Source: Gilliamella bombi
Lineage (GTDB): Bacteria > Pseudomonadota > Gammaproteobacteria > Enterobacterales > Orbaceae
NCBI RefSeq assembly: GCF_900103255.1
Contig: NZ_FMWS01000035.1
Coordinates: 1 to 59,081, forward strand
Length of the DNA: 59,081 nucleotides
Reading direction: 5' to 3'
The notes beneath the pieces are model-generated. The model was not told where the DNA came from, made no database searches, and saw only the letters and a program-made list of their open reading frames with translations. A program made the translations under genes and the position numbers. Of the stretch, positions 1,035 to 13,431 are shown piece by piece; positions within the stretch are counted from its first letter, which is position 1, and each line of letters begins with the position of its first letter.

Positions 1035-2036
1035 TTAACGCAATATTGAAGGTTGATCTGCACCTTCAGCTTCAATTTTTGGTGGCATAAAGTGTTCACG
1101 TTTTACGCCTAATTTGAGTGACATATACGCAGCCACATAAATTGATGAGATTGTACCAAGCACAATACCAACGCCTAATGTTTCAGAGAAACCTTTTAAC
1201 ATTGAACCGCCAAAGATATACAAAATGATGACTACTGCAAGGGTTGTTCCTGATGTCATCAAAGTACGGTGCAATGTTTGTGTTAACGAGATGTTGATAA
1301 CATCATAAGGCTCTGCTCGTCGAATCTTTCTAAAATTCTCACGAATTCGGTCGAAAACTACAATGGTATCATTGAGCGAATAACCAATTATCGATAACAT
1401 TGCAGCAATGATAGTTAAATCTAATTCACGTTCAAATAACGATAGATAACCTGCGGTGATGATAACATCATGCGCTAAGGCAACAACGGCACCAGTACCA
1501 AATCGCCATTCAAAACGAAAGGCAATATAGATTAAAATACACACTAATGCGGCGCAGATTGCCAAAATACCATCTTGGGCAAGTTCAGAGCCTACTGTTG
1601 GTCCTACAAATTCAATACGTTTGATTTGAGCATCGGCATCAATATCTTTATGTATTAAATTGGAAATTTTTGTACCTAGTGCATTATCAATAGCAGATGA
1701 CGTACTGCCATCTTCTTGTTTAGCTGAAGGTAATCGAATAATGATATCTTTACTGCTACCATAATATTGTACTATCGGCTCATGATAGCCAGCGTCGCGT
1801 AAACTGTTACGAAGGTCATCAAGGTTAACCACTTTTGTTACTGTGAGTTCTACTGTCGTACCGCCAGTGAAGTCTTGTCCTAGATTAAATCCTTTAACAA
1901 AAATAACCACAAACGATGCAACTACCAATAACATTGAAATAACAAAAGCAATAAAGCCAAATTTTAAAAAGTCGAGGACTCTGCGACCATGATTTAAATC
2001 TCTAACATCATGATTTTCTTTTTTATTAATAACCAC
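1035..2036 (-). CDS. secF: Protein translocase subunit SecF
   Basis: SecF is an inner-membrane RND-type subunit that, with SecD, uses the proton gradient to finish export of proteins through SecYEG. The 333-residue product (E. coli about 323) has an N-terminal membrane segment at about 25-50, the family motif GQDFTGGTTVEL, a periplasmic P4 domain, and five further membrane segments including GYSLNDTIVVFDRIRENFR. It starts with GTG; GAGG lies just upstream. It follows secD after a 9-nt gap, in the conserved order yajC-secD-secF, and ends at a hairpin before tRNA-Ala. No anomalies are seen. Confidence 0.97.
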   Translation of the reverse strand: MVINKKENHDVRDLNHGRRVLDFLKFGFIAFVISMLLVVASFVVIFVKGFNLGQDFTGGTTVELTVTKVVNLDDLRNSLRDAGYHEPIVQYYGSSKDIIIRLPSAKQEDGSTSSAIDNALGTKISNLIHKDIDADAQIKRIEFVGPTVGSELAQDGILAICAALVCILIYIAFRFEWRFGTGAVVALAHDVIITAGYLSLFERELDLTIIAAMLSIIGYSLNDTIVVFDRIRENFRKIRRAEPYDVINISLTQTLHRTLMTSGTTLAVVIILYIFGGSMLKGFSETLGVGIVLGTISSIYVAAYMSLKLGVKREHFMPPKIEAEGADQPSILR

Positions 2037-2045
2037 AATAAACCT

Positions 2046-3902
2046 CTAAATTGATAACTTATTAACACGGCGTCCGCCATAAATAAGATTGGCTAATGCG
2101 CGAGTACCAACAATCGATGTAAACATTGATGTTACAATACCGATGCCTAATGTAATGGCAAAGCCTTTAATTGAGCCTGTACCAACAGCATAAAGAATAA
2201 CAGCTGTAATTAATGTTGTTAGGTTGGCGTCAAAAATACTGCTCCAAGCACCAGCATACCCTTCATTAATTGCATGCTGAACACTGCGTCCATTGCTAAG
2301 TTCTTCTTTTATTCTTTCATTAATCAGTACGTTGGCATCAACAGCCATGCCAACGGTTAACACAATACCCGCAATACCTGGCATGCTTAGCGTTGCCCCA
2401 GGAAGTAAAGACATTGCACCAACAATTAAAATTAAGTTAGCAACTAACGCAAGGCTAGCAAATACGCCAAACAGACGATACATCACTAACATAAAGATGA
2501 CTGAAATCGCTAAACCCCATGCGCAAGATTCTAACCCTTGAGTTATATTTTCTTGCCCCATTGATGGTCCAACAGTGCGCTCTTCAATAATTTGGATCGG
2601 AGCAATTAAAGCCCCTGCACGTAATAATAATGATAAATTTTTAGCTTCATCAATATTACCAATACCCCTTACTTGAAAACGGTCACTAAAAATACCATCA
2701 ATTGTTGCTACATTAATAACACGTTCTTGTTTTTCAAGAACTGGTTTGTCGTTTTCATCACGTTTACCTGTGTCTTTGTATTCAACAAACAATGTTGCCA
2801 TCGCTTTATGAAGATTTTTTTGGGTAAAATCAAACATTCTTTTACCCCCCGAGCCATCAAGAGTAATAGCAACTTCGGGTTGACCATATTGATTAGCACG
2901 ATATGAAGAATCAGTTATATGATCCCCTGTTAATACAATACGCTTATAAAGTAGTACTGGGCGACCGCTCTCCATATATTTAATTTCTGAGCCATAAGGA
3001 ACACGCATGTCACCATTTAGGATGGCAGGCAAGTTAGGGGTATTTTCTTCATTAACTTGTCTAAATTCAAGTGTTGCTGTTGCTCCTAAAATACGTTTAG
3101 CTAATGCTGTGTCTTGTATACCCGGTAATTCAACAACTATACGATCTGCACCTTGGCGTTGAACAATTGGTTCAGCAACACCTAACTGATTAACACGATT
3201 TCGTAAAATTGTAGTGTTTTGTTGTACAGCATCGCTTTTGGCTTGTTGTAACCGTTGCTCACTGACATTAATTACAATAGCATTAACACTTTGAGAAACA
3301 ACTTTGAAATCTTGTATACCGTTGATCTTAGTGATAGCTTTATTGCGATCTTCAGTATTGTCAAATTGTATTAAAATTTGCTGATTACTATCTTTACTGA
3401 TCGTTTTATAATTTAATTTGCTATTAGTAAATTCGGTTTTTATGTTTTCAATAGATTGTTCAGTGAGTTTACTTAATGCGGTTGTCATATCGACTTCCAT
3501 TAAAAAGTGAACACCACCACGCAAATCAAGACCCAGCTTCATTGGTTCTGCACCTAACACCGTAAGCCAAGTTGGGGTTGCTGGTGCTAAATTTAATGCA
3601 ACGATATACTGCTCACCTAATGCTTCGGATATAATTTCTTTTGCTTTAAGCTGCGTATCGTTATCACCAAGACGAATTAAAATGGACTTATTTTCGTAAA
3701 CCAGTGATTTTGGTTTGATATGATTATCAGTTAAAAGTTTTTTGATTTTATCTTGCGTAGCAACGTTAATTTCAGCTGTATCTGATCCTGAAATTTGTAT
3801 AGCAGGATCTTCACCATAAATATTTGGAAGTGCATAAAGAAGGCCGAGGCAAATTACGACGACCAACATAATGTACTTCCACAAAGGATAACGGTTTAAC
3901 AC
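2046..3902 (-). CDS. secD: Protein translocase subunit SecD
   Basis: SecD is the larger RND subunit assisting the SecYEG translocon on the periplasmic side. The 618-residue protein (E. coli 615) starts with GTG as in E. coli, with MLNRYPLWKY entering the first membrane helix, followed by a large periplasmic domain containing MKLGLDLRGGVHFLMEVD at about 120. The C-terminal membrane domain has the conserved GMAVDANVLINERIKEE. A charged C-terminal stretch (YGGRRVNKLSI) ends the protein. It is co-transcribed with yajC and secF. Confidence 0.97.
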   Translation of the reverse strand: MLNRYPLWKYIMLVVVICLGLLYALPNIYGEDPAIQISGSDTAEINVATQDKIKKLLTDNHIKPKSLVYENKSILIRLGDNDTQLKAKEIISEALGEQYIVALNLAPATPTWLTVLGAEPMKLGLDLRGGVHFLMEVDMTTALSKLTEQSIENIKTEFTNSKLNYKTISKDSNQQILIQFDNTEDRNKAITKINGIQDFKVVSQSVNAIVINVSEQRLQQAKSDAVQQNTTILRNRVNQLGVAEPIVQRQGADRIVVELPGIQDTALAKRILGATATLEFRQVNEENTPNLPAILNGDMRVPYGSEIKYMESGRPVLLYKRIVLTGDHITDSSYRANQYGQPEVAITLDGSGGKRMFDFTQKNLHKAMATLFVEYKDTGKRDENDKPVLEKQERVINVATIDGIFSDRFQVRGIGNIDEAKNLSLLLRAGALIAPIQIIEERTVGPSMGQENITQGLESCAWGLAISVIFMLVMYRLFGVFASLALVANLILIVGAMSLLPGATLSMPGIAGIVLTVGMAVDANVLINERIKEELSNGRSVQHAINEGYAGAWSSIFDANLTTLITAVILYAVGTGSIKGFAITLGIGIVTSMFTSIVGTRALANLIYGGRRVNKLSI

Positions 3903-3970: not shown

Positions 3971-4303
3971 TTATAGTGATTTCATTGTCCCTTTTGGTAA
4001 GACTGATGTAATAAAGTCACGTTTGATCACAACTTCAGTCGTATCATTTAATTCTAACGCAATGTAACCATTTTCGTTAACTTTTGATACACGACCAATA
4101 AGTCCACCATTAGTTAACACTTCATCACCTTTTGAAATAGAAGCCATTAGATCACGATGAGCTTTGGCACGTTTTTGCTGAGGTCGCATAATCATAAAGT
4201 AGAAAAATAGCCCAAAAACTACTAACATGATTAGTAAAAAATAAGGATTGCTTTCAGTGGCTTGCCCATCAGTAGCATAAGCATTAGAGATTAAAAAGTC
4301 CAT
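3971..4303 (-). CDS. yajC: Sec translocon accessory protein YajC
   Basis: This 110-residue protein has a short N-terminus, one membrane helix (about 20-40), and the family motif MRPQQKRAKAHRDLMASI, then a cytoplasmic domain with KGDEVLTNGGLIGRV. YajC forms a holo-translocon with SecD, SecF and YidC. Its start is supported by an AGAGG-type ribosome site upstream. In E. coli it follows tgt; here the gene on the upstream side is nuoN, so the queA-tgt link is broken. Confidence 0.96.
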   Translation of the reverse strand: MDFLISNAYATDGQATESNPYFLLIMLVVFGLFFYFMIMRPQQKRAKAHRDLMASISKGDEVLTNGGLIGRVSKVNENGYIALELNDTTEVVIKRDFITSVLPKGTMKSL

Positions 4304-4489: not shown

Positions 4490-6226
4490 TTAGGTTGCCA
4501 AATATTGCGCCATACTAACTAAATTAAATAGCCATTTAGGGTATATTCCACAAAGCATCGTCAATAAGGCACATAACACAATGATTAATTCACTTATTCT
4601 AATATCAGTCCATTTTAATTTAATTGAAGATTTGCTTGATATTAGATCATCACGACAAACAGGTCTTATATAAAGGTTTATAATTAAGCTAGCATAGAAG
4701 TAAAGACCTAATGCACTGCCAATAACAACGGCAGCGACTAACCACCATAATTCGGCGGTTACACCTAATAACACCAGTAAAAATCGTCCAACAAATCCCG
4801 CAGTTAAGGGAGTTCCCGCTAAAGATAAAAGTCCAACTCCCATGGCTAATGCTAGGATTGGCCTTCGCCAAAATAGTCCTGATAGGTCAATTTCGTTTTC
4901 ATGATCTTGAAGTTCATCAGAGTGTGAATCTAAACTGATCGCACCTAAAATACAGATATTAGCTAAAATATATCCAATTAGATAAACACCAATAGTTTCT
5001 AATGCTAATACTTGATATTGCACAGCTATTAATGCCGTTAATAAATATCCAAAATGTGCTATCGATGAATAAGCTAATAGTCGCTTTAAACTACTTTGCA
5101 TTAGCGCCAATAAGTTACCCCACAGAATAGAGCAAAACGCCATAATAACTAAAATAATACGAATAGTTTCATTGTTAACAATAGGTGCCAATAAAAAAAG
5201 TCTTGCGATAGCACAAAAAATTGCAACTTTTCCGACTGTTGATAACAATAAGGCAACTATTGTTGGTGCACCTTGATAAACATCTGGTAACCAAAGTTGA
5301 AATGGTACAAGAGATAATTTAAAACCGATGCCGACTAGCATTAAGCACACACCTATCAGTAATAATAGACTTGGATAAGACATTGTTGAGAGTTGATAAC
5401 TTAAACCACTAAAAGTAAGTTCTCCAGTAGTTGCATAATAAAAAGCAATCCCCATTAATAAAAACACGCTGGCGATAGCAGATAAAATCATGTATTTAAC
5501 TGCGGCTTCCAATGAATGGGTCTGCGTATATTGATAACCAATTAATCCAACAAATGGAATAGATAATAGTTCGATCCCAATAAAAAATGCAATTAAATGG
5601 CTTGCGTAAACAAGTGTTACACCACCTAATGCCATGAAAAGTAAAATTAAATAAAATAATCCATGATGATTCTGTTCTTGTTTAAACCAGCGATAAGCAA
5701 AACATGCAACTGAAATAGATATCATTAAAATCAAACTGGTGTAAAGTAGCCCATAGCCATCACAAGTAAAAAGAGCTGTGATATGGTGTGCTTTCCACTC
5801 GTCTGTTGACTCATCATCAATATTCGAATTATCCCCAAAATTAGAATTAGTATCGATATTTTTATTGTCAATGCTATTATCTTCGGTATTACTATCAATA
5901 TTTAAAGTTTTATCTTCATTAGATGATTCGGTCGTTTCTGTAGACACCGTATCAATTGCAATAGTTTCTTCACTCGATCGGATTTGTTCTTTAGCTGGCT
6001 CTGAAATCGATGCTGATATTTGCATATTATCACTGCTGATATCTGTAATAGCTTGAGTACTAAAAGAAATTTTATATCCAACCATCACAGAGCAAATTAA
6101 AGCACAGGTTAATCCGCATACCGTTAAAATAGCACATCCTTTGGTACTTAGCTTAAAAGCAAATAGTAAAGATAAAAAAACGATGATGGCTAGACTTAAT
6201 ACAAGAATGGGTGATAAAGCTATCAT
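4490..6226 (-). CDS. nuoN: NADH-quinone oxidoreductase subunit N with an acidic periplasmic insertion
   Basis: NuoN is one of the three antiporter-like membrane subunits of complex I. Most signatures are intact: the TM5 Glu in FFIGIELLSIP, Lys in SLEAAVKYMIL, the TM7 Lys in GFKLSLVPF and TM8 Lys in STVGKVAIF. Two changes stand out against E. coli: VPFHLW is VPFQLW, and the TM12 Lys in GFIGKF is Arg (GFVGRF). The protein has 578 residues against about 485 in E. coli. The excess is a low-complexity stretch at about residues 58-148, rich in Ser, Thr, Asp, Asn and Glu, between TM2 and TM3, on the periplasmic side by known topology. It is the last gene of nuoJKLMN, 6 nt after nuoM. Confidence 0.93.
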   Translation of the reverse strand: MIALSPILVLSLAIIVFLSLLFAFKLSTKGCAILTVCGLTCALICSVMVGYKISFSTQAITDISSDNMQISASISEPAKEQIRSSEETIAIDTVSTETTESSNEDKTLNIDSNTEDNSIDNKNIDTNSNFGDNSNIDDESTDEWKAHHITALFTCDGYGLLYTSLILMISISVACFAYRWFKQEQNHHGLFYLILLFMALGGVTLVYASHLIAFFIGIELLSIPFVGLIGYQYTQTHSLEAAVKYMILSAIASVFLLMGIAFYYATTGELTFSGLSYQLSTMSYPSLLLLIGVCLMLVGIGFKLSLVPFQLWLPDVYQGAPTIVALLLSTVGKVAIFCAIARLFLLAPIVNNETIRIILVIMAFCSILWGNLLALMQSSLKRLLAYSSIAHFGYLLTALIAVQYQVLALETIGVYLIGYILANICILGAISLDSHSDELQDHENEIDLSGLFWRRPILALAMGVGLLSLAGTPLTAGFVGRFLLVLLGVTAELWWLVAAVVIGSALGLYFYASLIINLYIRPVCRDDLISSKSSIKLKWTDIRISELIIVLCALLTMLCGIYPKWLFNLVSMAQYLAT

Positions 6227-6232
6227 AGTTTA

Positions 6233-7777
6233 TTACTCCCCTACCCGCTCTATGGTTATGTATTGCTGTGTTTGATTTACGACAGAATAAGACATATCTA
6301 AAACTACTTGAGGATATAAACCGATAAAAATAAGTACACTTAAAATACTTGATAATAATAAAAGATCTTTCTTACTAAGCTGGCATTTTGTTGCAGCTCC
6401 TTTATCAACTACACCATAAAAAATTGGCTGTATACGTACAATAAATGAAATGGACAGTAATAATAAACCAATTACTAGTAAAATTGTATAATAGGAAAAA
6501 GCATTATAACTACCAAGCAACATCATATAATTCCCAATAAAATTAGCCGTACCAGGAATGCCTAACACTGCCAATATAAAAAACAAAGTAAAAGAAGATA
6601 AATAAGGCACTCTTTCTTTAAGCCCAACAAATTGATTTATATTTCGCGTTGAATAACATTCAACTAATAATCCACTAATTATAAACATGCCGACGATTGC
6701 CAAATTAATGGCTATCATTTGAATAACCACACCTTGATAAGCAAGAACAGAACCACTATAGATTATTGCAGTTACAAATCCCATTAAAGCAATATGAATA
6801 TAAGCTATTAGCTTTTTAATATCAGTTTGGTTAAAAGCAAGTAAAGCAGCATAAACAACCGTAAGTAGTGCAAATGCTAACATTAACGGCATAATAATGA
6901 TTGATGCATTAGGAAATAATGGTATAACAAAACGCAATAAGCCAAATGCAGCTGTGTTAAGTAATAATCCACTAATCATCATTGAGCCAGTTGTTGAAGA
7001 TTCAATATGGGCTTCAATAAACCAACCATGAAATGGAACAAATGGTATACGAACAATAAAAGCAGCTAAAAATCCTAGCATAATTAAAAATTCAGTATAA
7101 CTTGAAATTGGCGTTTTGGTTAATTCTTGATAATCAAACGTCCAATGTCCTGTTAAATTCCAGTTAATCAAAGCTAATGAAACTATCGAAATTAGCATAA
7201 GTAAACTGCTCACTTGAGTATAAATCAGGAATTTACTTGCACCATTAAAACGCAATTGCGAACTTGAATCTCGTCGTCCCCATAAGGAGATTAAAAAATA
7301 GATGGGGATTGCTACAGCTTCCCAAAAGAAAAACATTAAAAATAAGTCAGTGATTACAAATAACATCATGATTGCCGATGTCATAAATAATAGACATAAG
7401 TAAAATAGACCAAGATTGTTTAAGCTTTCTTTACTAGAATAGATAATAGTCAATAATACAATAAATAAGGTTGAGGTAATAACAACCATAGATAAACCAT
7501 CTAAGACAAGATGAAAACGAATTCCTAATAGAGGGATCCATTCTAGATTAAATTCTTTTACCCAATTTCCCCCTTGATTTAATATATTTATAGCATCTAT
7601 CCATAATAATATCGACATCAATAATGTAAGAAAAATAGTAATAAAAGCTACAATTATTGGTAATTTTGACCAACGCATTTGTACATTGGCTGAAACAACG
7701 CCTCTTTGTAAACATACATGGCATAACCAACCAATAAATCCGCCTATTATAGGTAAAAAAACGAGCCATAATAACAT
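6233..7777 (-). CDS. nuoM: NADH-quinone oxidoreductase subunit M with substituted channel residues
   Basis: NuoM (514 residues; E. coli 509) is the central antiporter-like subunit of the complex I membrane arm. About 14 membrane segments are visible and homology runs end to end. The TM5 Glu (FFFWEAVAIP) and the Lys in GASKFLIYT are kept. By eye against E. coli, the TM7 Lys (AVKMPVVP, K234) is Arg here (IVRIPFVP), the TM8 Lys (LLKTAAYG, K265) is Asn (LLNTAAFG), the SHMGFV His is Ala (ALMGFV), MIAHGL is MIAINL, and the TM12 Glu (GEFMILFG, E407) is Asn (GNYMMLLG). These positions carry the proton path in the family, so pumping through this subunit is doubtful. The frame is fully open, which argues against a plain pseudogene. 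Confidence 0.93.
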   Translation of the reverse strand: MLLWLVFLPIIGGFIGWLCHVCLQRGVVSANVQMRWSKLPIIVAFITIFLTLLMSILLWIDAINILNQGGNWVKEFNLEWIPLLGIRFHLVLDGLSMVVITSTLFIVLLTIIYSSKESLNNLGLFYLCLLFMTSAIMMLFVITDLFLMFFFWEAVAIPIYFLISLWGRRDSSSQLRFNGASKFLIYTQVSSLLMLISIVSLALINWNLTGHWTFDYQELTKTPISSYTEFLIMLGFLAAFIVRIPFVPFHGWFIEAHIESSTTGSMMISGLLLNTAAFGLLRFVIPLFPNASIIIMPLMLAFALLTVVYAALLAFNQTDIKKLIAYIHIALMGFVTAIIYSGSVLAYQGVVIQMIAINLAIVGMFIISGLLVECYSTRNINQFVGLKERVPYLSSFTLFFILAVLGIPGTANFIGNYMMLLGSYNAFSYYTILLVIGLLLLSISFIVRIQPIFYGVVDKGAATKCQLSKKDLLLLSSILSVLIFIGLYPQVVLDMSYSVVNQTQQYITIERVGE

Positions 7778-7794
7778 GAATGATTACACCTTTA

Positions 7795-9642
7795 TTAAAT
7801 AAAAATCAGTAGCATTAATATGAAAATACTACCTATAACCATCGAAACCATATACCACCGAATTTGCCCATTTTCTAGATCAACGGTGAACGCGTTTACT
7901 TTTTTGATTCCCCTCATTATCCAATTATCCCAAAAAGCTAGTGGATCTTTTTTCAAAAAACGGGCTAAATAGACATAAGGTTTAACAAATAAAGTATGCA
8001 ATAAATAATCATAATGCCAATCACTATTACATAAACGTAAAAGGAATTTAACCATTGGCGTATTTAGAATTTCTTGTACTTCGCTATTTGGATGAGCATA
8101 TAAAATATAAGCAATCAAAAAACTCAATCCAGTTACAGCTACTAGAAGTAGTTGAAAAGGTAACTGCCCATTAGTATCTAACTCAGCTATCGGAATAATA
8201 CCTTGAGTTGGTAATGGGAAGTAGATAAATAAAGCTGTAGTAAATATTAATAAGATGAAAATTGGTAAATAACTTAACCACTTGGTTTTAGTAAAATCAT
8301 ACTGTTTTTGTTTACGATAAAAAACCATTGAAATTAAGCGCCAAATACCTAAACTAGAAAGTAAAATACCAAACAAACCAATGGTTCCTAATATCAATTT
8401 ATCTTGAGTCATTAAACCCAATATGATATCGCCTTTAATATAAAATGATGATGAAACCCAAGGCATAGCACTAAGTGATAGCATGATTAACAAAAATATC
8501 GCATATAACATCGGAAACGTTTTAAGTAAACCACCTAGTTTACTGATATCTCGTTCACCTTGACATTTCTTAATTAAAATAGATGAAGCTAAAATTAGCA
8601 ATGTGCTTGTTACGACATAATTAATTAAGCAATTAAGAGATAAACTCCAACTTTTTGTTGAAAAAGCATAAAATAAATAGCTAATTTGCGTTAAATTAAT
8701 ATATGTAACAATTCGTTTAATATCATACTGCACTAATGCAATGGTGCTAGCAAATAATATAGTCAATGATGAAATCATTGCTATAATAGCAAGAACATCG
8801 CTCGACATCATAAACAAATCACTAAGTCTTAAAACTAAATATACACCAGCTAAAATTACTGTTGAAGATTGCAATAAAGCCATCGCAGGCATTGGAGCTA
8901 ATGTTGTTTCAGCAAACCATGAATGCATAGGAAATAGTGCCGACTTGCCCATTGCCCCAAGGAATAGCATTAGAGTAATCCAAAATATGATATCAGAATC
9001 AACAGCCAAATTATCATGTGCTTGCGTCAAAACGTCACGGATATTTAATGTTTCTAGAGTTTGATACAGTAAAAATATACCAATAATTAGAAAAATATCA
9101 GTTAAATGCATAATCACAAATGCTCTAACTGCAGCATAACCATTACGAGGCTGTTTATAGTAAATACCAATGAGCAAGTATGCACTTATACTCAAACCTT
9201 CCCAACCCATTAGCATAACAAACAAATTATTGACCAATATTATAGTTAATATGCTAGCAATTAATAAATTACTGTAAGCATAAAAGGTGTAAATATCTTT
9301 TTTTGAAGTTAAATCACAAGCTGCAAAAAGATAGACCCAAAAACCAAAAAATGAAATCAACGCTAAAAAGGTTAATGATAATCCATCCAAGGTTAAGGAA
9401 ATAGGTACTGAAAAGTCACCTACCGAAAACCAATTCCACAGTGGTCGAGTATAAACTAAGGTCATATCAGGTACTGTATTTGAACTAAAATCGATACAAG
9501 AAAATACAGTAATTAATGCTATTATCAGCATAGTAGTAATACCAATAATTATCACATTAATTGATCTGATATGTCTTCCCAAGCTCACCAATACTAAAAA
9601 AGAAAATAAGGGAACAATAATAGTTAAATAAAGTAAATTCAT
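7795..9642 (-). CDS. nuoL: NADH-quinone oxidoreductase subunit L with altered central channel
   Basis: NuoL (615 residues; E. coli 613) is the distal antiporter-like subunit with the long lateral helix that clamps the membrane arm. The C-terminal part, including the segment before FVKPYVYLARFLKKDPL and the last membrane anchor, is present. TM5 Glu (MGWEGLSI), the Asp in HLTDIFL and TM7 Lys (GKSALFP) are conserved. By eye, the His of SALIHAAT is Gln (MALLQSST), and the E. coli cluster HLMTHAFFKALL (H334, H338, K342) is CLINYVVTSTLL with no His or Lys. FFSKDEIL is FYIKGDII. The start codon overlaps the nuoK stop (ATGA), indicating translational coupling. Confidence 0.93.
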   Translation of the reverse strand: MNLLYLTIIVPLFSFLVLVSLGRHIRSINVIIIGITTMLIIALITVFSCIDFSSNTVPDMTLVYTRPLWNWFSVGDFSVPISLTLDGLSLTFLALISFFGFWVYLFAACDLTSKKDIYTFYAYSNLLIASILTIILVNNLFVMLMGWEGLSISAYLLIGIYYKQPRNGYAAVRAFVIMHLTDIFLIIGIFLLYQTLETLNIRDVLTQAHDNLAVDSDIIFWITLMLFLGAMGKSALFPMHSWFAETTLAPMPAMALLQSSTVILAGVYLVLRLSDLFMMSSDVLAIIAMISSLTILFASTIALVQYDIKRIVTYINLTQISYLFYAFSTKSWSLSLNCLINYVVTSTLLILASSILIKKCQGERDISKLGGLLKTFPMLYAIFLLIMLSLSAMPWVSSSFYIKGDIILGLMTQDKLILGTIGLFGILLSSLGIWRLISMVFYRKQKQYDFTKTKWLSYLPIFILLIFTTALFIYFPLPTQGIIPIAELDTNGQLPFQLLLVAVTGLSFLIAYILYAHPNSEVQEILNTPMVKFLLRLCNSDWHYDYLLHTLFVKPYVYLARFLKKDPLAFWDNWIMRGIKKVNAFTVDLENGQIRWYMVSMVIGSIFILMLLIFI

Positions 9643-9941
9643 CCTTTCATTTCACTCAATGAGTCAATATTAAATGTTTTTCGACGGTAAAATAGTTTTA
9701 TCATCAATGCAAGACCGACACAAACTTCGGCTAAGGCAGTTATTACTGCTAATATAGCAAGTACTTGCCCATCAGATTGTTGCCAATAGCTACTTGCTGC
9801 AAACAACGCAACTATAACCCCATTATTCATAATAATAAGGCTAAGTAATAAAAAATAGAAATGGCGTCGAATCATTATTCCTAACAAACCAATCACAAAT
9901 AAAATAGAAGCAAGAATAAGACTATGTATGAGTGGAATCAT
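9639..9941 (-). CDS. nuoK: NADH-quinone oxidoreductase subunit K lacking the first essential Glu
   Basis: The start at 9941 gives exactly 100 residues beginning MIPLIHSLIL, like E. coli NuoK (MIPLQHGLIL), and has a GGAGA ribosome site; a start 14 codons upstream is disfavoured. There are three membrane helices and a C-terminus NIDSLSEMKG nearly identical to E. coli. The TM2 motif IGLEIMINA is LSLIIMNNG here, so the essential Glu36 is Ile. The TM3 Glu72 (TALAEVCVGL) is retained. Loss of Glu36 interrupts the proton-transfer axis by known E. coli mutant work. It sits 1 nt after the nuoJ stop and overlaps nuoL. Confidence 0.93.
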   Translation of the reverse strand: MIPLIHSLILASILFVIGLLGIMIRRHFYFLLLSLIIMNNGVIVALFAASSYWQQSDGQVLAILAVITALAEVCVGLALMIKLFYRRKTFNIDSLSEMKG

Positions 9942-9942
9942 A

Positions 9943-10434
9943 TTATTTCTCCAACATAAGCCGATGCATAAAATGATAAGCAATCACAACTGCGCCCAAT
10001 AGTAAAAACAGTGCCAATTCAGCTATCAAAATGTATGCATATTTAGACATTTCATGCATTAATTCATGAGACTCTTTCAGTTCTGAATAGTCAGTACTTA
10101 CTACACTATAAATTAGGGCGACTAATAATACAAATGCTAAGACAAGTGGACCTAACCAGATTTTAGGACTAATTCCTTGCTTGTGGTTTTCAACATTATC
10201 ATCTTTAATTTTCAAAATTGAAGCGACAAGTAAAAAAAGAGTTACCGATCCACCAATAAACAGTAAAATATATAAAATAGCTGAATAATATGTATTAAGT
10301 AGAATAAATATTAGTGCTGAAGCAAAAAGTGAAATAACAAGATATAAAATTGCTTTATCAACACGTAAACTACTAATTACTTTTATACTAGCAACGACAG
10401 CAATAATCGACGCGATATAAAAAACAGCAATCAT
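9943..10434 (-). CDS. nuoJ: NADH-quinone oxidoreductase subunit J, divergent TM3
   Basis: The ATG at 10434 gives 163 residues starting MIAVFYIASIIAVVA, which aligns with E. coli MEFAFYICGLIAILA; a TTG four codons upstream is less likely. NuoJ (E. coli 184 residues) contributes to the E-channel and the pi-bulge of TM3. The E. coli TM3 core ALEIIVYAGAIMVLF corresponds to AILYILLFIGGSVTLF, so Glu55 and probably Tyr59 are missing. It is the first gene of the operon; upstream lie only an intergenic region and divergent ppc. The peripheral-arm genes and nuoA/nuoH that normally precede it are not here. Confidence 0.88.
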   Translation of the reverse strand: MIAVFYIASIIAVVASIKVISSLRVDKAILYLVISLFASALIFILLNTYYSAILYILLFIGGSVTLFLLVASILKIKDDNVENHKQGISPKIWLGPLVLAFVLLVALIYSVVSTDYSELKESHELMHEMSKYAYILIAELALFLLLGAVVIAYHFMHRLMLEK

Positions 10435-10779
10435 TAAATAATCCAATGTGTATTCATAATATAGCTAGTATATACCCAAATGATATCAAGATACAGTTTA
10501 CCACTGTATTCATAAAAAATAATCCTGTTAAATAAGTTTTCTAATGAATATTTCTAATATCGAATAAACATTCGAAGTCTAATTTTTCATGATAGATATA
10601 ATTAAAACAACTATAACAAATAAAAACCATAAAATTTTATTATTTAAATTCAAAATCAAATTGTAATAAAGTATAACTTATGCACATTAATCAACATTAT
10701 ACCTATCCCATTAAATTGTCATTTTGATTCATACAGCTTAAAGGGGCTTAGGCATAATAAAATCGAAGACGAGAAAATC
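10435..10779. promoter_or_regulatory. Divergent intergenic region between nuoJ and ppc
   Basis: These 345 bp must hold the nuoJ and ppc promoters. TGTATTCATAA occurs twice in direct orientation at 10449-10459 and 10505-10515, the first copy 14 bp upstream of the nuoJ start. ATACAGT (10491-10497) pairs with ACTGTAT (10503-10509) around a 5-nt loop and overlaps the second copy, suggesting an operator. The rest is very AT-rich, with no convincing gene and no nuoI remnant that I can recognise. Confidence 0.55.
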
Positions 10780-13431
10780 ATGAATAACCAATACTCATCA
10801 ATGAGAAGTAATGTCAATATGTTAGGTACTCTACTAGGCAATGCAATCAAACGTGCTACTGGCAATGAAACATTTAATTTAGTTGAAATGATAAGACAAT
10901 TATCAAAATCAGCTCAACAAGGAGATACTCAAGCTCATAATGAGTTACTTAAATTAATTGAAAACCTTAATGATGACGATTTATTACATGTTGCACGGGC
11001 ATTCAATCAGTTTTTGAATTTGGTCAATACAGCCGCTGAGTATTATGGTATTTCACCCCATGGGGAAGCTTCTAGTAGTCCTAAAAAAATGACCGAATTA
11101 TTTAGCACACTAAAAAACCTTAATTTTTCAAATCAAACTATTACAAAAGCAATTAATGATTTGTCAATTGAATTAGTATTGACCGCACACCCGACCGAAA
11201 TCAATCGCCGAACGATGATTAATACTTATACAGCCATAAATAACTGTCTATCACAACTGGATCATGATGATTTAGCTGACTACGAAATTGAGCGCATTAT
11301 GCGACGTTTGAAGCAGTTAGTTTGTCAGGCTTGGTATACTGATGAAATACGTAAAAAACGCCCTACTCCTATTGATGAAGCGAAATGGGGATTCTCAGTC
11401 ATTGAAGATAGCTTATGGAATGGTGTACCTCTATTTTTACGTGAACTTAATGACCAATTAGTTGATGCGTTTGATGAACAATTATCGGTTGATCATGTCC
11501 CTATTAAATTCACCTCATGGATGGGGGGAGATCGTGATGGTAATCCAAATGTCACAGCAAAAATAACAGAAAAAGTCATGTTACAAGCCAGATTAAAGGC
11601 AATTGAGTTATTTTTAGCAGATATTCAAATACTTGTTCGTGAACTTTCAATGACGGAATGCAGTAATTCGGTCATTGAACTGTTAGATGAAAAAAACAAA
11701 AACGTTTCAGAGCCATATCGAGCTGTAATGAAGCAGTTACGAACACGTTTAATCAAAACTCACAACTATATTGAAGCTTTATTGAATAATGAACCTATAT
11801 TAGCGCCTTGCGATATTTTGATTAAAAATGAGCAGTTGTGGAATCCGCTTTATGTATGTTATGAATCGTTAATTGACAATGGAATGTCAACAATTGCTCA
11901 TGGACCATTGTTAGACACACTGCGTCGTATAAAAAGCTTTGGGTTACAATTAGTCAGATTAGATATCCGTCAAGACAGTTCAGTACATACAGAAGCACTC
12001 GACGCATTAACCAAAGAACTTAACTTAGGTAGCTATGCTCAATGGTCTGAAGAAGAAAAACAAGCATTTTTATTAACAGAGTTAAAATCAAATCGACCGT
12101 TATTACCTTACAGTTGGCAACCAGATCAAATGGTTCAAGAAGTATTAGACACTTGTCGTGTAATAAAAAAAGCAGGCGAAGAATCAATTGCTTCTTATGT
12201 AATTTCAATGGCTAAAGCACCTTCTGATATTTTAGCGGTTTATCTATTATTAAAAATCGTTGACTGCCAAAAACACATTCCCATAGTACCGTTATTTGAA
12301 ACTCTAGAAGACTTAAATAATGCTAAATCAGTCATGCAAAAACTATTGGATATCCCTTGGTATTACAATAAAATTCAAGGTAAACAGATGGTAATGATAG
12401 GTTATTCTGATTCGGCTAAAGATGCTGGCACTCTTGCCGCGTCTTGGGCACAATATCGGTCACAAGAGGAATTAGTTAACTTATTTGAAAAATATAATAT
12501 TAATTTGGTGTTATTCCATGGACGAGGAGGATCAATTGGTCGAGGGGGCGCACCAGCTCATGCCGCACTACTTTCGCAACCACCAGGATCATTAAAAGGA
12601 GGACTTAGAGTTACTGAACAAGGAGAAATGATCCGCTTTAAACTCGGCCTGCCAGAGGTTGCTCTCAGTAGTCTTATGCTTTATACCTCAGCTATTTTAC
12701 AAGCCAACTTATTACCACCTCCAGAACCTAAACAGGAATGGCGCAGTATCATGGACGAAATGTCAGAAATTTCATGTAATTGTTATCGTAGTTATGTACG
12801 AGAACGTTCTGAATTTGTTGATTATTTTAGAGCAGTAACACCAGAGGTTGAATTAGCCAGATTACCACTAGGCTCAAGACCACAAAAACGCCGAACAGGT
12901 GGAGGTATTGAAAGTTTACGTGCTATTCCTTGGATTTTTGCTTGGACACAAAACCGTTTAATGGTGCCATCTTGGCTCGGTGCAGGTAGTGCACTTAGAG
13001 CTGTTATTGGAGAAGGCAGACAAAACATTCTTAAAGAGATGTACCACAATTGGCCTTTCTTTAATGCCCGATTAGGTATGCTTGAAATGGTTTACGCAAA
13101 ATCTGCGCCAAATATTCACCAATATTACGAACAACGTTTAGTCGATCCTGCATTATGGCCATTAGGTGAAGAATTAAGAAATTTGCTAACCCAAGATATC
13201 AATACAGTATTAACTATCACTGATGATATTAGTTTAATGGCTGATTTACCTTGGATAGCCCAGTCGGTAGCATTACGTAATACTTACATTGAACCATTAA
13301 ACTTATTACAAGTAGAGTTACTAAGTCGCTCACGAAAAAACAACGATAATAATAATGAAAACATTATAGTTGAACAAGGGCTAATGATCACCATCTCAGG
13401 AATCGCAGCGGGTATGAGAAACTCTGGATAA
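10780..13431 (+). CDS. ppc: Phosphoenolpyruvate carboxylase
   Basis: The enzyme carboxylates phosphoenolpyruvate to oxaloacetate, replenishing C4 acids. The 883-residue length equals that of E. coli Ppc and similarity is continuous. Visible signatures are the catalytic His motif LTAHPTE at about 135, [16 protein letters not shown] at about 240, [10 protein letters not shown], the glycine-rich loop [12 protein letters not shown] at about 580, and the C-terminal MRNSG corresponding to MRNTG. An anaplerotic route to oxaloacetate suits a fermentative bacterium with an incomplete TCA cycle, but that is inference. It is transcribed away from the nuo operon and ends in a bidirectional terminator. 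Confidence 0.97.

Follow-up and report, generated by a model that had tools for sequence, protein, structure and literature searches.

Orphan nuoJKLMN genes of Orbaceae encode a selected, re-tuned complex I membrane arm that has probably taken on a new role

The window analyzed here, a stretch of 59,081 nucleotides from Gilliamella bombi (NCBI RefSeq assembly GCF_900103255.1, contig NZ_FMWS01000035.1), carries an orphan set of complex I membrane-arm genes, nuoJ, nuoK, nuoL, nuoM and nuoN. The evidence presented below lends good support to the view that these genes, throughout the family Orbaceae, encode a membrane arm that is selected, re-tuned and devoid of its engine, and that the arm has probably acquired another role. 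More specifically, comparison of the sequences leads us to propose, with about an even chance of being right, that nuoJKLMN encode a stand-alone, redox-independent membrane complex derived from an ancestral enterobacterial complex I, which is kept by selection and would move ions via NuoN. That such an orphan set exists in Gilliamella is already known: PMC11325843 (2024) reports nuoJKLMN in all 95 Gilliamella genomes studied, in agreement with earlier work on G. apicola, and describes nuoJKLMN and frdCD as conserved across Orbaceae and as possible remnants of genome reduction (elsewhere, it cites nuo genes lacking in Candidatus Schmidhempelia). The genes are the same as those considered here; their selection, their residue changes, an insertion in NuoN and a linkage to sec genes are not described in the available text of that paper. 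Among the matches listed in our literature search, we found no publication on the selection, residues or function of the orphan set.

The source assembly (2.62 Mb, 132 contigs) is rated 100% complete, and the window spans the whole of one contig, C28. All five nuo frames are open and lie closely packed on the minus strand, from 10446 (or the ATG at 10434) to 4490, and the ATG of nuoJ, the first gene, is 345 bp from the divergent ppc, just as an earlier note on this DNA had stated. Pfam profiles recognized Proton_antipo_M in three of the proteins, plus Oxidored_q2 and Oxidored_q3, each above cut-off. The best NCBIfam models were NuoN, M, L, K and J, with the curated cut-off passed by N, M and K; NuoL (397.7 vs. 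407.5 bits) and NuoJ (93.9 vs. 157) fell below theirs, consistent with their divergence.

The earlier note had seen no nuoI remnant and had offered two options, namely that the remaining subunits are encoded elsewhere or that the organism keeps only a membrane module. Profile searches of the source genome, with PF00361, NuoA, NuoD, NuoF and NuoH all giving matches in E. coli as a control, yielded no NuoA, NuoD-type, NuoH or NuoF/RnfC-type protein, and PF00361 matched three proteins, all in the window, with no further copy that could belong to a second nuoJ-N set. We then considered the family as a whole, searching 44 Orbaceae genomes (36 of them for NuoD, PF00346). NuoM was present in 42 genomes, including all 39 with at least 90% completeness, the two without a match being assemblies 59% and 74% complete. 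Neither NuoA (PF00507) nor the NuoF/RnfC type (PF01512) was found in any of the 44. NuoH (PF00146) was found in five (G003, G015, G023, G064 and G065), and a NuoD-type protein was not found in 33 of the 36 genomes searched, the other three having it in hydrogenase-4-like loci. All five genomes with NuoH encode extra NuoM-like proteins a few kb from the NuoH match, and the three that were also covered by the NuoD search (G003, G015 and G023) encode a NuoD-like protein at the NuoH locus; because of these nearby proteins, we read all five NuoH loci as hydrogenase-4-like.

We also inspected the stretches around the module at 42 distinct loci, i.e., the window, L061-L084 without L080 (dropped, being from the same genome as L088), L087-L098 and L102-L107. 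None of nuoA, B, C, E, F, G, H and I occurs in these stretches, nuoI included, as the earlier note had seen for the window (NuoB, E, G and I had no genome-wide search), and the Enterobacterales references L099-L101 show all eight around the module. An assembly gap does not account for the arrangement, which was met in 42 of the 44 genomes, several of them assembled into a single contig. When we searched 24 genomes, one per other family of the order, eight had NuoM (identity of at least 31%), each of them together with NuoD; no second orphan nuoJ-N case was met in this small, same-order sample. The option of a membrane module only therefore stands, and extends to the whole family. The other option, an ordinary complex I whose operon is split and whose nuoA-I lie elsewhere, found no support and is ruled out by the family-wide searches for NuoA, NuoD, NuoF and NuoH, which leave it next to no probability.

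Across the 42 loci, all 210 nuoJ-N reading frames are open, including those of L098, the locus most distant from the window (44-64% identity). NuoL and NuoM stay within narrow length ranges, and NuoJ, NuoK and NuoN have variable ends or loops; the window NuoM is up to 92% identical to that of Gilliamella relatives. Pairwise ratios of nonsynonymous to synonymous substitution (dN/dS, Nei-Gojobori), given as medians for pairs with dS < 1 since values at dS > 1 are rough, were 0.158 for nuoJ (208 pairs), 0.095 for nuoK (154), 0.098 for nuoL (63), 0.076 for nuoM (73) and 0.105 for nuoN (71), and the highest single nuo value among these pairs was 0.423, in nuoK. The control genes yajC, secD, secF and ppc (full-length in 40, 39, 38 and 34 loci) gave medians of 0.102, 0.064, 0.045 and 0.038, respectively. 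Of the signs of decay tested, none was found, i.e., no frameshifts or stops in the 210 frames and no dN/dS near 1. The nuoJ-N module evolves under purifying selection, as the earlier note had presumed from the intact frames, and the high dN/dS across the clade that it had named as the mark of simple decay was not observed.

These data contradict the interpretation of the genes as remnants put forward in the available text of PMC11325843. A non-functional remnant of genome reduction would be in keeping with the lack, in the source genome, of the catalytic subunits searched for, and with the long stem branch and the loss of several relay residues described below. Against it stand the 210 open frames, the dN/dS medians of 0.08-0.16, residue replacements that have been invariant ever since, and the presence of NuoM in every one of the 39 near-complete genomes, which together make it very unlikely in our estimate.

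We next aligned nine complex I references with the 42 Orbaceae loci (residues follow E. coli numbering) and looked for columns that are invariant in the references and invariant but different in Orbaceae. Among the 69 reference-invariant columns of NuoM, exactly three are of this kind in all 42 loci: K234R, H322L and E407N. Moreover, K265 is N, T, S or G and H348 is I, V or M throughout, and E144, H241 and K312 are retained in 42 of 42. According to the available text of PMC9271201, H322 of NuoM relays a proton from K265 to E407, and E144 and K234 form a pair; of these five relay residues, E144 alone remains in Orbaceae. The chance of all three altered columns falling on these five residues is 0.0002 (0.001 for our own eight-site list), figures that are a guide only, as the site list was fixed after the first residue comparison and the columns share descent.

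In NuoJ, the sole invariant-but-different column is Y59F, in 42 of 42 loci. NuoK has none; its E36 is M, I or V in every locus, and its residue 72 is E in 25 loci and Q in 17, the latter spanning two genera, which suggests that E72 was lost more than once independently. NuoL has four such columns (M88F, F123L, G245A and H338Y), and its H254 is replaced in 39 loci and retained in L096-L098. Overall, the reference residue is the commonest one at 40 of 44 reference-invariant columns in NuoN, 51 of 69 in NuoM, 60 of 105 in NuoL, 8 of 12 in NuoJ and 6 of 11 in NuoK. The central-axis relay of complex I is incomplete in Orbaceae: its residues in transmembrane helices (TM) 7, 8 and 12 of NuoM and TM12 of NuoN are replaced in all 42 loci, and that in TM8 of NuoL in 39. 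These fixed changes at proton-relay sites support, at the sequence level, the term 'rewired' used in the earlier note.

A long-range proton relay along the arm, with NuoL as the only exit, is modelled for complex I in PMC10212512, as far as its available text goes. We infer that without NuoH and NuoA, and with these relay sites gone, such a relay could not work in Orbaceae, even if an electron-input arm were provided. A NuoL-only proton exit (K399 is present in 41 of 42 loci) was considered and dropped, as NuoL E144, K229 or K399 is altered in four loci, belonging to two other genera.

NuoN, in contrast to NuoM, NuoK E36 and NuoJ Y59, retains its ionisable core. It has no invariant-but-different column; E133, K158, K217, K247 and K295 are retained in 42 of 42 loci and H305 in 38. 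It is because the strictest conservation in the module is that of the ionisable core of NuoN, which adjoins NuoK and NuoJ, that we place a putative ion path there. In addition, all 42 NuoN proteins bear an insertion after E. coli residue 58, between TM2 and TM3. The stretch matching E. coli residues 45-71 (27 residues) has grown to 86-234 residues in Orbaceae, with a net charge of -4 to -27; in the window, the 119-residue stretch measured contains 23 D+E and 6 K+R. By the positive-inside rule, given the basic residues in the TM1-TM2 loop, the inserted loop would lie in the periplasm. When NuoN was split for 47 close pairs (pooled), dN/dS was 0.064 for the core and 0.354 for the inserted loop. 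At the start of this otherwise variable loop, most loci of the window's genus share a well-preserved ITDISSDNMQ-like motif, possibly a docking site.

As to the descent of the module, a tree of NuoL, NuoM and NuoN (29 sequences, from 20 of the 42 Orbaceae loci and the nine references; LG+F+R4) placed Orbaceae in a single clade (support 100) whose stem measures 0.72 substitutions per site and which joins the complex I of Enterobacterales and of a long-branch insect symbiont included among the references, L085 (support 100). The position of L085 beside Orbaceae, at support 79 and on a very long branch, is taken as branch attraction. Among solved structures, E. coli NuoM is nearest to the Orbaceae NuoM (411 bits), the best Mrp chain reaching 92 bits. 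Structure models were computed with 16 of the 42 sequences in the alignment. The NuoM model (mean predicted local distance difference test score, pLDDT, 77.7; predicted template modelling score, pTM, 0.83) has a template modelling score (TM-score) of 0.89 to E. coli NuoM (PDB 3rko), so that the residue swaps leave the predicted fold intact; the NuoM model alone was searched, the AlphaFold model of NuoN, at a mean pLDDT of 47.8, being too poor to use. These relationships indicate that the module descends from a complex I of the enterobacterial type, underwent much change in the family stem and settled afterwards. Most simply, nuoA-I would have been lost before Orbaceae diversified, with the membrane arm surviving.

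We thus arrived at a model in which an ion path centred on NuoN would operate without redox drive, either as H+/cation exchange or as a controlled proton path (the ion is a guess), with NuoM and NuoL acting mainly as a scaffold. The acidic NuoN loop may collect cations or dock a partner, whose nature is likewise a guess. Tentatively, and at a little below an even chance, the sequences would make this a new kind of ion-translocating five-subunit complex, i.e., a complex I stripped of its engine, with the NuoN path alive and the NuoM path shut. The 'new kind' raised in the earlier note holds in part only, as PMC11325843 had already reported the orphan set for 95 Gilliamella genomes.

Compared with known systems, the module resembles E. 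coli complex I (3rko) in that J, K, L, M and N are homologous and collinear, and L, M and N group with those of Enterobacterales. It is unlike complex I in lacking NuoA, H, D and F, in its replaced NuoM relay, NuoK E36 and NuoJ Y59, in its acidic NuoN loop and in mostly adjoining yajC-secDF. The nearest redox-free parallel is Mrp, whose MrpA-N, MrpD, MrpC and MrpA-C are given in the available text of PMC7419157 as the counterparts of NuoL, NuoN/M, NuoK and NuoJ. The two share a redox-free set of such subunits; the Orbaceae module differs in its extra NuoM and is closer in sequence to complex I. MrpB, E, F and G were not recognized beside the module, though no profile search for them was made. 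With regard to other ion systems, NhaA and NhaB were each found in 0 of 44 Orbaceae genomes, which speaks for the proposed ion path. NqrA, a co-occurring system the earlier note had suggested looking for, was likewise found in 0 of 44 (its control exceeded the cut-off in no more than 2 of the 14 genomes).

Several observations weigh against the proposed NuoN ion path. The usual exit site, NuoN K395, is R in 41 loci and Q in one, and NuoL sites vary (R229/E399 in L092, V144/R229 in L095, Q144 in L090 and L091). Neither the NuoJ-59 carboxylate nor the His pair of the NuoK-like subunit, which belong to the Mrp cation site as described in the available text of PMC7419157, has been regained, NuoJ 59 being F rather than E, and NuoK 36 M, I or V, in every one of the 42 loci; an Mrp-like way of working would therefore be partial at most, and we do not class the module as Mrp. 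The Na+/H+ exchanger family PF00999 is represented in 43 of the 44 genomes (the single protein checked belongs to TIGR00831, of CPA1 type), which weakens the case for the module filling an empty antiporter slot. Finally, the nuo genes are under weaker constraint than secD, secF and ppc, and purifying selection would fit a structural role equally well.

Another explanation is that the module anchors a new complex in the membrane, and that the hydrophilic partner, a redox enzyme or a regulator unrelated to NuoA-I, is encoded elsewhere. NuoJ and NuoK, the would-be exposed end, are under selection while their E-channel residues are replaced, as this explanation would have it. A similar situation is seen in fumarate reductase: its membrane anchor FrdC (PF02300) was found in 43 of the 44 Orbaceae genomes (in the source genome at C81:7416-7742), and the available text of PMC11325843 has frdCD retained in all Orbaceae and frdAB lost outside Zophobihabitans, making FrdC a second quinone-enzyme anchor retained without its catalytic part. 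However, frdC lies far from nuoM in other genera with both on one contig, and no conserved candidate partner adjoins the module besides yajC-secDF and ppc. We consider an anchor role somewhat unlikely.

The neighboring genes themselves raise two further possibilities. Downstream of nuoN, on the same strand and at a distance of 111-338 bp, yajC is found in 39 of 42 loci, and secD and secF each follow in 38; ppc is divergent upstream in 34, and the remaining neighbors turn over between genera. The module might accordingly serve protein export, being co-transcribed with yajC-secD-secF and supplying or regulating the proton flux of SecDF. Yet the module is intact in L075 and L087, where yajC-secD lie on the opposite strand beyond nuoJ, and in L077, where they do not occur in the stretch covered (in L078, secD is cut off by the contig end). 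The sec linkage is thus old yet dispensable, given that these exceptions retain the module. Linkage alone is also weak evidence when ppc adjoins the module so often, and promoter-like and terminator-like sites were in no excess over shuffled sequence; altogether, we judge a role in export unlikely. The second possibility, prompted by the bicarbonate-consuming ppc neighbor, is an inorganic-carbon pump of the DAB type (NuoL-like DabB plus DabA). DAB uses one NuoL-like subunit, not J-N, and we give this possibility very little probability.

The features of the locus are listed in the table below. The nuoK reading frame spans 9639-9983, and its ATG at 9941 corresponds to the E. coli NuoK start. 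Directly after secF, the window contains a tRNA-Ala (834-909) and then a 171-residue N-terminal piece of a tyrosine integrase (Arm-DNA-bind_3 and part of Phage_int_M), together spanning 165-909; this arrangement resembles an integration site, and similar reading frames occur in 14 of the 42 loci.

Table 1. Features of the nuoJ-N locus in the window (E. coli residue numbering)
Feature	Position	Strand	Remarks
nuoJ	9943..10446	-	first gene; start TTG 10446 or ATG 10434; E. coli Y59 position is F
nuoK	9639..9941	-	E. coli E36 position is I; E72 retained in the window protein
nuoL	7795..9642	-	full length with C-terminal lateral-helix region; H254Q, H338Y, K342S; E144, D178, K229, K399 retained
nuoM	6233..7777	-	K234R, K265N, H322L, E407N; E144 retained
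nuoN	4490..6226	-	E133, K158, K217, K247, K295 retained; K395R
NuoN acidic insertion	5792..6058	-	TM2-TM3 loop, about residues 57-145; coordinates approximate, counted from the protein
yajC	3971..4303	-	187 bp past nuoN
secD	2046..3902	-	
secF	1035..2036	-	
ppc	10780..13431	+	divergent neighbor

A redox-free antiporter and a hydrogenase-like engine are thought to have been the building blocks of complex I. Orbaceae seem to run that assembly backwards, with the pump arm still under selection after the loss of the engine. The finding contradicts the suggestion, made in the available text of PMC11325843, that these genes are mere remnants in a common bee-gut symbiont. The sites that were fixed differently (in NuoM, at NuoK E36 and at NuoJ Y59) and those that were retained (in NuoN) bear on the debate over the proton route across the arm. 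If the proposed NuoN ion path is true, a redox pump would have reverted to a redox-free transporter, and the family would offer a natural mutant with which to find out what antiporter-like subunits and exits are required by complex I.

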